A stretch of DNA of 64,000 nucleotides from Tritonibacter mobilis. Lineage in GTDB: Bacteria > Pseudomonadota > Alphaproteobacteria > Rhodobacterales > Rhodobacteraceae. A program made the translations under genes and the position numbers. Below are positions 17,473-20,105 of this stretch, one piece after another. Location: positions 1-64,000 of the forward strand of contig NZ_LNWY01000019.1 in assembly GCF_001681715.1 (NCBI RefSeq), read 5' to 3'. Position 1 is the stretch's first letter. Every line of letters starts with the position of its first letter. The notes beneath the pieces are model-generated. The model did not search any database. It saw only the letters and a program-made list of their open reading frames with translations, and was not told the DNA's origin.

Positions 17473-18540
17473 TCAAATCTCGACAGAGACCTTTCCGATC
17501 GGATTTGAGCAACACGCAAGGATGTAGCCAGCTTCGATATCGTCGTCCGATATGCCACCGTTATGCACCATGTGAACCTCGCCTGAGGTTTTCTTAACCT
17601 TGCAGGTGCCGCAGACCCCAAAGGTGCAGCCGGAGGGGATATTCAAACCATTTGCACGTGCTACTGCAAGGATCGTGTCCGTTTCCGCAACCTTTGCGGT
17701 AACACCAGAGGTTTCGAACGTCACCTCGACCTTGGTTTCATCGTCCAGCACCACATCATCAAAGTCAGGTTGCTCTGCCGCGGTTTCAACCGGTGCGTGG
17801 AAGCTTTCTTGATGATAGTTTTCCATATCAAAGCCGAGGCCTGCGAGCGCGTCCCGCACGGCTTGCATAAAGGGCTCTGGACCGCAGCAATAGACTTCGC
17901 GTTCCAGATAGTCCGGGGCCATGAGGCCAAGCATCAACTGGTTGAAGACACCCTGATACCCTGTCCAGGGCCGATAGGGGTCAGGCTCTTCGACCACGAA
18001 TTTCAGATCCAAACCCTCAGATCGGCTTGCCATCTGTTCCAAGCGTTGGCGAAAGATGATCTCTGAGGGGCGTTTGGCACAATTGACAAAGACGATGTCG
18101 AGGTTGTCGCCATCATCCCACATGCTTGTCGTCATCGACATCATCGGTGTGATGCCAGAGCCTGCGGAGATAAACAGGAACTTCTTTGCTGAGCTGTTGG
18201 CGTTGGTGAACAGACCTGCCGGACCCAGCGCTTTGATCCGGCTACCAGGGCGCAGGTTGTCCAACATCCAGCGTGTTCCGATACTATCGCGCTGAGCCTT
18301 GGCGGTGATGGTGATATTACGCGGCCGCGACGGCGAGGATGAGATCGTGTAGGTTCGGTGCAATGGTCCACCCGGAACCGGGATCTCCACTGTCATGAAC
18401 TGGCCGGGGTCATATTCAAAAAGGGCACCAGAGGGCGCCTTAAAGGTGAAAGACGCCGTATTGTCCATTTCGGGAATAATGGAGACGCATTCCAGCATCT
18501 CCGTATCTTTCCAGATCGCGCGTTCGCTGTTTCTCGGCAT
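17473..18540 (-). CDS. gbcB: Rieske monooxygenase reductase component (GbcB-like)
   Basis: 355 residues. The FAD domain shows HRTYTISSSPSRPR, the NAD domain SAGSGITPMMSM and VYCCGPEPFM. The C-terminal about 85 residues are a plant-type [2Fe-2S] ferredoxin with CTFGVCGTCK and a distant ACCS. This passes electrons from NAD(P)H to the oxygenase encoded just upstream (6-bp gap). The fusion order matches GbcB, CntB and related reductases. The gene symbol depends on the oxygenase assignment and is tentative. Confidence 0.8.
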   Translation of the reverse strand: MPRNSERAIWKDTEMLECVSIIPEMDNTASFTFKAPSGALFEYDPGQFMTVEIPVPGGPLHRTYTISSSPSRPRNITITAKAQRDSIGTRWMLDNLRPGSRIKALGPAGLFTNANSSAKKFLFISAGSGITPMMSMTTSMWDDGDNLDIVFVNCAKRPSEIIFRQRLEQMASRSEGLDLKFVVEEPDPYRPWTGYQGVFNQLMLGLMAPDYLEREVYCCGPEPFMQAVRDALAGLGFDMENYHQESFHAPVETAAEQPDFDDVVLDDETKVEVTFETSGVTAKVAETDTILAVARANGLNIPSGCTFGVCGTCKVKKTSGEVHMVHNGGISDDDIEAGYILACCSNPIGKVSVEI

Positions 18541-18546
18541 GATCGT

Positions 18547-19773
18547 TTACTCCGCCGCTACAGCTGTTGGGCCGCTGTTGCGCTTGAGGGTTTCGAGGTA
18601 CCACTGGACGAATTGCAACACGCCGCTTTCCTGCACCTCCGAGTAGGGGCCGGGTTCATAGGCAGGTGAATTGATGCCCATTTGATTGAACTCTACCACC
18701 TCACGGTCCTCATCGTTGGTGGCGATCCAGACCTCGGTGAGCCGCTTTAGATCATAATCGACCCCTTCGACAGCATCCTTGTTCACCAGCCATTTGGTGG
18801 TGACTTCGGTTTCTGTTGGGCTGATCGGTGTGACCCGAAACACGATGGAATGGTCGGCGAGAAAATGGTTCCATGTGGTTGGATAGTGAAACTTCAGCAG
18901 TGACCCGGCATCTGCGAATGCCGCTTGCCCAAGCCACCGGCGGACTGCGGTTTTGCCGTCCAGCGTATAGCTTTCGGCACCCTCTTTCAGGGGCATGCGG
19001 GCGACGCGAAACTGGCCGTTCTCACTCATGTGAAAGGTAGAGGGCATCCCGGCTTGTTCGCAGCGCTCAAAATGCGCTTGCAGGTTTGCCGGGGTTTCGC
19101 CGCCCTCAATACCTGTGATGGAGGGATCATCTGGGAACGTGCGGCACAGCGAAGGGTGGTTGCCGCCGCAGTGATAGCACTCGCGATTGTTTTCCCAGAC
19201 GAGCTTCCAGTTTCCCTTCTCAATGATCGAACTTTCAAAGGCGACCTTGGCATTCGAGAGATCATGGATTTCCAAATACGGACGGGCAACATCGGCAAAC
19301 TGTTCGAAATCTGGCGGGTCATCTGCAAGGCAAATGTAAACCAAGCCGGCGAGTTCGCGGCAGTGTACAACTTTTAAGCCATGTTTGCTGGCGTCGAAGT
19401 CTGGTCCCATATCACGGGCCCAGAGCAGGCGACCGTCGAGCTCGTAGGTCCACTGGTGATAGGGGCAAACTAGCTTTGGATTGTTGCCTTTTTTCGCCTT
19501 GCAGATCACCGATCCACGGTGGCGACAGGAGTTGTGGAAGGCGCGGATTTCATTGTCGGAGCCGCGCACAATGATCACATTGTAGGTGCCAACCTGATGG
19601 GTGACATAGCTGCCAGCCTTTTCCAGCTCGCACGCCGGGATCGCAAAGAGCCATTCCTTATAAAAGATCTCCTGCAGATCAGTCTGAAAGATTTCAGCAT
19701 CATTATAAAATGCCTGCGCAAGGGCGTGACCCGGATTGTGATTTGCGATCAGCGCACTGATATTGCTGTTCAT
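18547..19773 (-). CDS. gbcA: Rieske-type oxygenase alpha subunit, glycine-betaine monooxygenase (GbcA)-like
   Basis: 408 residues from the ATG at 19773 (GGAGAG and AGGAA precede it); the longer frame runs through the riboswitch and is not coding. The Rieske centre is C83-R-H85 and C103-P-Y-H106; the mononuclear iron site is in [13 protein letters not shown] (H201, H206). The stretch [18 protein letters not shown] and the NNRECYH motif are what I recall from GbcA, which demethylates glycine betaine to dimethylglycine plus formaldehyde; carnitine or stachydrine oxygenases are alternatives. The mRNA leader carries a cobalamin riboswitch, unusual for this family. It forms an operon with the reductase. 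Confidence 0.78.
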
Positions 19774-19924
19774 TTCCTGACTCTCCTGCCGCGCAACGCG
19801 GTCGGTGACAGCACGTTTGGCGGTTGGTTGGGGTGCGTACGGCAAAGGGTATCCATTAGGCCGCAGCGGAGGGAACCGCGTCCTTTGAAGATGCCCAAAC
19901 CGCCGCCCGCGGTTGACGATATCT

Positions 19925-20105
19925 GCTGAGGCTGGTTTCCGGGCTGAGAGACTGACCAACTGGTCGGAGCGCGACGCCTTCCCGGGTTTCCTCCTCCCAG
20001 TGGCCAGATGTCGCGCCCGCAAGTCTCATGACCGTTGCGGGGGCAGCGCCGGAATTGCACCGGCTTCCCAATTCTCCGCCTGCGCAAGCCCAGACGGCAC
20101 CTCGT
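19925..20105 (-). promoter_or_regulatory. Cobalamin (B12) riboswitch in leader of the Rieske oxygenase operon
   Basis: Read on the minus strand, all conserved blocks are present in order: GAGGTGCC near 20103, GGGAAGCCGGTGCAATTCC (about 20068-20050), then GCGCTGCCCCCGCAAC (the B12 box), GCCACTG (about 20004), GGGAAGGC (about 19983), and the 3' part AGCCCGGAAACCAGCCTC (about 19944-19927). The element ends about 150 nt before the oxygenase ATG. B12 riboswitches normally lower expression when adenosylcobalamin is plentiful. The leader after the aptamer has no obvious U-run terminator, so control may act on ribosome access. Confidence 0.92.

Follow-up and report, generated by a model that had tools for sequence, protein, structure and literature searches.

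Among the targets of cobalamin (B12) riboswitches, isozymes of B12-dependent enzymes form a recognized category in the accessible part of PMC3766115. The switches in front of metE and of the class I ribonucleotide reductase (nrd) genes follow this logic, in that a B12-independent enzyme replaces a B12-dependent one. Glycine betaine is abundant in the sea as an osmolyte, and a main route of its demethylation in roseobacters has only recently been tied to a cobalamin-binding methyltransferase. According to the text available from Mausz et al. (2025; PMC12478193), demethylation of glycine betaine in Ruegeria pomeroyi runs via B12-dependent MtgBCD, MtgC and MtgD are essential for both glycine betaine demethylation and methionine synthesis, and GbcAB is named as another route. 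Here we describe a locus in a 64,000-nt stretch of the Tritonibacter mobilis genome (positions 1 to 64,000 of contig NZ_LNWY01000019.1, assembly GCF_001681715.1; hereafter the window), in which a complete cobalamin riboswitch precedes an operon for a two-component Rieske oxygenase resembling GbcAB and the stachydrine demethylase Stc2. With a probability of about 0.72, this switch represses a betaine Rieske demethylase, which would be a B12-independent counterpart of MtgBCD made when cobalamin is low. The locus is best read as one more case of a known type of circuit, and this member was not found in print: among the papers listed in a literature search, none, judged by title and the beginning of the abstract, linked a B12 riboswitch to a betaine Rieske demethylase, and in the part of PMC12478193 that was accessible the word riboswitch occurs only in a reference title. 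However, the survey in PMC3766115 covers 15 Rhodobacterales genomes, and its supplement, which should list riboswitch-regulated genes, may hold an earlier listing.

The aptamer lies at 19913..20119 on the minus strand and matches the RF00174 covariance model over its full length (model positions 1-189 of 189), with 102 bits and an E value of 2.1e-24 against a gathering score of 31.5; it is the sole Rfam match at or above the gathering score across the window. A preliminary description of this DNA had reported a full B12 riboswitch on the minus strand before the oxygenase gene, and the scan bears this out, although the end given there, 20105, falls 14 nt short of 20119. From the 3' end of the aptamer, 139 nt lead to the oxygenase ATG (19773), and no other gene was seen in this interval on inspection, in agreement with the earlier statement that no B12 gene lies between switch and oxygenase. 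A longer TTG-started open reading frame (ORF) running through the aptamer was dismissed as a mechanical product of the ORF list. Both operon genes lie on the minus strand: the oxygenase subunit (GbcA/Stc2-like, 408 aa, P0001) at 18547..19773, assigned from NCBIfam, Pfam domains and PDB matches, and the reductase subunit (GbcB-like, FAD/NAD/2Fe-2S, 355 aa) at 17473..18540, assigned from NCBIfam and domains. The reductase starts 6 nt past the oxygenase stop, and the two genes form a two-gene operon.

The best NCBIfam matches of the two subunits are GbcA (NF058607, 502.8 bits) and GbcB (NF058606, 357.6 bits), the subunits of the glycine betaine monooxygenase known from Pseudomonas and Chromohalobacter, so that the earlier label of a GbcAB-like operon stands; neither score reaches the respective equivalog cut-off of 670 or 500, and the oxygenase is therefore not called GbcA. 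The GbcA model gives 480-507 bits on four relatives as well (Ensifer, Thalassospira, Halomonas and Ruegeria). Among PDB entries, 3n0q, deposited as a putative aromatic-ring hydroxylating dioxygenase, matches all 408 residues of the oxygenase with 887 bits, and 3vca and 4qup, which we take to be Stc2 of Sinorhizobium meliloti, match with 661 bits each, over nearly the whole length. The cysteines of 3vca were counted at 202 and 205, equal to the Stc2 positions in the accessible part of PMC10952381, where a Cys-X-X-Cys near the mononuclear iron is ascribed to some members of the Group V Rieske enzymes, which act on quaternary ammonium compounds. The T. mobilis oxygenase carries the Rieske and ring-hydroxylase catalytic domains together with this Cys-X-X-Cys at the catalytic iron, as some Group V members do; the residues E198, C199, H201 and C202 of its E-C-Y-H-C motif are kept in 105 of 105 aligned homologue rows, and its closest relatives are the stachydrine and glycine betaine demethylases. 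The motif and the GbcB-type reductase partner also speak against an enzyme acting on a corrinoid or lower-ligand compound, as had been proposed at first; regulation by cobalamin is the only point in favor of such a substrate, which we regard as extremely improbable.

The choice between betaines is less clear. In the accessible part of PMC10952381, Ala223 of Stc2 contacts the product, and the T. mobilis oxygenase has Thr220 at this place. Neighboring genes were compared over flanks of at most 10 kb (less where the contig ended) with genes picked mechanically, and the residue was read against them. It is Thr at all six loci with sarcosine-oxidase or dimethylglycine (DMG)-dehydrogenase-like neighbors but without old yellow enzyme (OYE)-type ones, Ala at all four with proC-like and OYE-type neighbors, and Thr in only one of five with sarcosine/DMG-type and OYE-type neighbors. 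All 27 switch-bearing rows of the oxygenase alignment outside a second switch clade (see below) have Thr, including the distant Labrys sequence, while the second clade is mixed (three Thr, three Gly, one Ala); the residue is confounded with phylogeny. Overall, we favor glycine betaine as the most likely substrate on these sequence grounds, proline betaine also being possible. An alternative of some weight, though clearly the less likely one, is that the substrate is proline betaine (stachydrine) or another betaine, and that another methyltransferase of the MttB family, feeding MtgC, is the B12-dependent counterpart. The 661-bit matches to Stc2-type structures, the GbcA score below the cut-off and the presence of two MttB-family proteins in this genome, and of several in many genomes of the family, would fit it; the Thr shared by the 27 switch-bearing rows and the six sarcosine/DMG-type loci points the other way.

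The flanks set the switch loci apart from both GbcAB and Stc2 systems. OYE-type, sarcosine-oxidase or DMG-dehydrogenase-like neighbors occur at none of 25 switch loci versus 28 of 55 others, the OYE cluster being presumably StcD/DgcA-like, and proC-like genes are likewise absent from the flanks of the switch loci. A LysR cluster lies near the operon at two of 25 switch loci versus 22 of 55 others. At two switch loci the operon is divergent from nrd genes that have their own B12 riboswitch (L053 by NCBIfam, L014 by eye), at two more (L043, L044) it is near nrd by eye, and at L040 it is divergent from a switched operon for the cobalt transporter gene cbiM. The nrd neighborhood is not exclusive to switched loci, because the switch-free L081 and L085 are also near a switched nrd operon.

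The T. mobilis genome also encodes homologues of MtgB, C, D and E, which by sequence would make up the B12-dependent counterpart, their function being assumed. Two MttB-family proteins are MtgB homologues, and a corrinoid protein with the domain make-up of MtgC adjoins an MtgE-type protein, which passes the betaine-homocysteine methyltransferase model, and a DUF1638 protein. R. pomeroyi likewise has DUF1638 near mtgC, according to the available text of PMC12478193. A protein with a methyltetrahydrofolate:corrinoid methyltransferase domain scores above its cut-off and is the MtgD candidate (L141), with a neighbor that is MetF-like by eye only and has no NCBIfam match; it is a better candidate than L139, which is FolP-like judging by its neighbors (by eye) and was set aside. 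The genome encodes four proteins with an FAO_M domain, which could be DMG or sarcosine dehydrogenases. MtgBCD(E) and the oxygenase are predicted to carry out the same reaction step, from glycine betaine to dimethylglycine, but MtgBCD(E) does so by corrinoid-dependent methyl transfer to tetrahydrofolate with unrelated protein families.

Because the genome encodes homologues of B12-dependent MtgBCD, the oxygenase operon fits the class of riboswitch-controlled B12-independent isozymes, and the earlier suggestion of a need for the enzyme under B12 scarcity fits this class too. It shares with the metE and class I nrd switches the RF00174 family, the leader position and the replacement of a B12-dependent enzyme, but differs from them in controlling a Rieske betaine demethylase and in its core at P3, P6 and J6/3. 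With plentiful cobalamin, the leader would repress the two-component Rieske N-demethylase operon; at low cobalamin, the operon would be expressed, and the oxygenase would act as an O2- and NADH-dependent, B12-independent replacement of corrinoid-dependent MtgBCD. Since MtgC serves both betaine catabolism and methionine synthesis, a shift of catabolism to the oxygenase would leave more of the scarce B12 to methionine synthesis. If this is true, the supply of B12 or cobalt would affect betaine turnover, formaldehyde production and the demand for B12, and betaine demethylation would be added to the few reactions with a pair of isozymes switched by B12.

A different link to methionine had been put forward at first, namely that the demethylase supplies one-carbon units, or is otherwise linked to methionine synthesis, when MetH cannot work because B12 is short. 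The window does encode MetH, as the preliminary description had stated, in two overlapping ORFs on the plus strand (33645-34754 and 34657-37476), with the homocysteine module encoded separately from those for pterin, B12 and activation. A search for PF01717 methionine synthase, positive in 10 of 14 control genomes, found none in the T. mobilis genome. However, Rieske N-demethylases release formaldehyde, which is not methionine and does not bypass homocysteine methylation, and MetH lies about 13.5 kb away on the other strand. We hold this explanation for improbable and prefer the B12-independent replacement of MtgBCD.

Between aptamer and start codon, the leader contains a P13/L13-type hairpin, AACCGC-GGGCG-GCGGTT (19898..19914, minus strand), identified from the sequence and the leader alignment. 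This AACCGCGGGYGGCGGTT-type hairpin 3' of the aptamer has core columns that are invariant in 18 of 18 aligned leaders, and its GGG is complementary to a CCC in L5 of the aptamer. By homology, the L13 hairpin would kiss L5, a kissing loop whose role in cobalamin riboswitches is treated in PMC9600662, in the part available. Directly 5' of a Shine-Dalgarno-like AGGAGAG (19781..19787, minus strand; from the sequence and the consensus of the aligned leaders), the 18-leader alignment also gives a small CCGC/GCGG hairpin (19789..19801, minus strand; alignment columns 153-156 and 163-166), in which two of four pairs are invariant in the 18 sequences, with little covariation. No terminator-like site was seen between aptamer and ATG, and the folded 184-nt leader was not more stable than its shuffles (z 0.71), which rules against a mechanism by transcription termination; control at the level of translation is therefore preferred, and would act via the L5-L13 kissing loop and the ribosome-binding site. 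The consensus fold of the 18 leaders has almost no covariation (-0.32 kcal/mol), and its long-range pairs are not relied on.

The sign of regulation is taken from the riboswitch family, in which, to our knowledge, nearly all characterized cobalamin riboswitches repress; by analogy, this leader probably represses as well. The opposite, a switch that activates, or a relic with no regulatory effect, seems to us hardly probable. An activating corrinoid riboswitch has been reported (PMC10653944, in its accessible part), and one relative carries a decayed copy; yet the aptamer core and the L13 hairpin are kept across many genera, which favors selection over a relic. That decayed copy stands before the oxygenase of Primorskyibacter flagellatus (L060, 9736-9900, plus strand), where the L13 hairpin and part of the core are kept and the B12 box and J6/3 are altered (by eye); it suggests that the switch was lost in a lineage that once had one.

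The pairing of switch and oxygenase is conserved well beyond T. mobilis. A regular expression for the switch proved far too strict (five matches among 109 loci), and a covariance model built from 20 aptamers was used instead to scan the named relatives, which are the best 80 of 594, L048 and L065 repeating L012 and L015. The switch lies just before the oxygenase in 25 of these 80, including all of the first-listed 18, with a spacing of about 80-145 nt from aptamer to orthologue in the 25 switch-led loci. Scanning L016, L019, L028, L031-L035, L094, L115 and L118 with filters off disclosed no hidden aptamer (best 11.1 bits). In a family sample of 149 genomes, one per genus, the oxygenase (called at E 1e-80 or better) was found in 32 genomes with 33 matches, and RF00174 is directly upstream in 12 of these 32 genomes. 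This count comprises 11 of 30 scanned loci, our own included, and a second copy in genome G091 found by pattern search and confirmed with Rfam, the matches in G083 and G006 being outside the covariance-model scan. G091 carries two oxygenase copies, one with a switch (L172, 1543-1739, minus strand, contig C64) and one without.

In a quick tree of 105 oxygenase proteins, many forks of which are weak, the switch label needs 8 changes versus 28.9 when shuffled, and none of 500 shuffles was as low. Of its 34 switch rows, 26 fall in one supported part of 70 rows, seven in a supported group of 11 (Paracoccaceae), which is the second switch clade, and the last, L116 (Labrys), stands apart on a long branch.

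Co-occurrence with MtgC gives a further view of the proposed replacement. Fifty of the 80 named loci (25/25 switched, 25/55 switch-free) were given to the MtgC search and 49 were searched, L111 being left out; MtgC (E below 1e-100) was found for 25 of 25 switched loci versus 16 of 24 switch-free ones. When named and family genomes are pooled and duplicates removed, MtgC is present in 33 of 33 switched versus 32 of 43 switch-free genomes (Fisher p 0.0017, which ignores relatedness), G091 being entered by its switch-free copy. In family genomes at least 90% complete, the oxygenase occurs in 4 of 6 without MtgC versus 26 of 126 with it (p 0.024). The four MtgC-less, oxygenase-bearing genomes have no switch, three by covariance model and G083 by pattern only. 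The second switch clade contains four switch-free rows, two of which, L033 and L118, belong to genomes that lack MtgC, in line with the prediction.

Several points weigh against the proposed replacement of MtgBCD under a repressing switch. The pooled MtgC count leaves out G118 (84% complete), which has a switch and no MtgC match, and takes the switched G170 (L105) as MtgC-positive despite one internal stop in frame. Only four phylogenetically independent pairs exist on supported branches, with a median of one agreeing and none opposing, which is not significant. MtgC is near-universal in the family (139 of 149 genomes; MttB in 142 of 149), and L031 and L115 of the second clade and L019 of the first group have MtgC yet no switch. 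In T. mobilis, the corrinoid protein scores 198.9 bits versus an NCBIfam MtgC cut-off of 370, the MttB model is also below its cut-off, and the names MtgB and MtgC are given by homology. The oxygenase being below the GbcA cut-off, its substrate could be another betaine. Finally, with no methionine synthase of the PF01717 type in the genome, growth should cease under deep B12 starvation regardless of betaine.

The oxygenase-linked aptamers also form a sequence subclass. Among 34 of them, AACGGT, CGGAAACCAGCC and AATTGGGAA are each present in 33, L105 and L054 being the exceptions to the signature; the T. mobilis aptamer has AAA in J6/3, AACGGT and AATTGGGAA. All 16 other B12 switches compared (six from the same genome, ten from related loci) have AGA in J6/3, and the oxygenase-linked aptamers share fixed core differences from these 16 at P3, P6 and J6/3. 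On the Rfam structure line, the differences at P3 and P6 look compensatory, but the G-to-A change in J6/3 does not. J6/3 contributes to the pocket that recognizes the upper ligand. The ligand is presumably cobalamin; that the subclass reads a form other than adenosylcobalamin, such as methyl- or aquo-cobalamin, and thereby gives a direct readout of the MtgC-type corrinoid pool, is a speculative idea that we consider unlikely.

A pattern search of the family found at least 19 sites in 18 of 149 genomes, a lower bound because a known copy in G076, one base off, was missed; of these sites, 11 precede an oxygenase, another four show the full signature in front of a different gene, and the last four have AGA in J6/3. 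AACGGT alone was rejected as a subclass marker, as L150, L161, L162 and L164 combine it with AGA in J6/3, and these four switches are an intermediate sequence type. They precede proteins with MHIEPGVV near the start; that of L164, the sole one of the four scanned with Pfam, is CbiM-like, and that of L161 has no NCBIfam match. The full signature is not exclusive to the oxygenase either, as it also occurs in four genomes of the family, ahead of a protein of about 90 residues: L168 (5238-5437, G141), L169 (4876-5063, G138), L170 (4885-5071, G115) and L171 (1511-1706, G044), all RF00174 matches on the minus strand. This protein (ILxxLxxLPE...AARxGFLEWxMxLP) is conserved and undescribed, with no Pfam match in the three scanned, and the switch lies between it and a uvrD/pcrA-type gene, identified as UvrD by Pfam in one case and by eye in the rest.

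The whole T. mobilis genome contains seven RF00174 sites, six beyond the oxygenase leader. Two of the six precede ATP-binding cassette transporter operons with a Peripla_BP_2 binding protein (B12/siderophore class), one a cobW-like operon and another a CbtA-like gene (both by eye), and one a class I ribonucleotide reductase operon (NrdE by Pfam; NrdH, I and F by eye). The genome also encodes NrdJ, and NrdJ together with the B12-switched class I reductase operon is the classic isozyme arrangement. At L129 (6368-6826, minus strand, G000 contig C34), the sixth of these riboswitches stands before a protein of 152 aa that matches DUF1636 only below threshold (E 0.0016). Elsewhere in the window, at 10742-13015 on the plus strand, a TetR/BetI-type regulator adjoins a member of the 5-guanidino-2-oxopentanoate decarboxylase subfamily.

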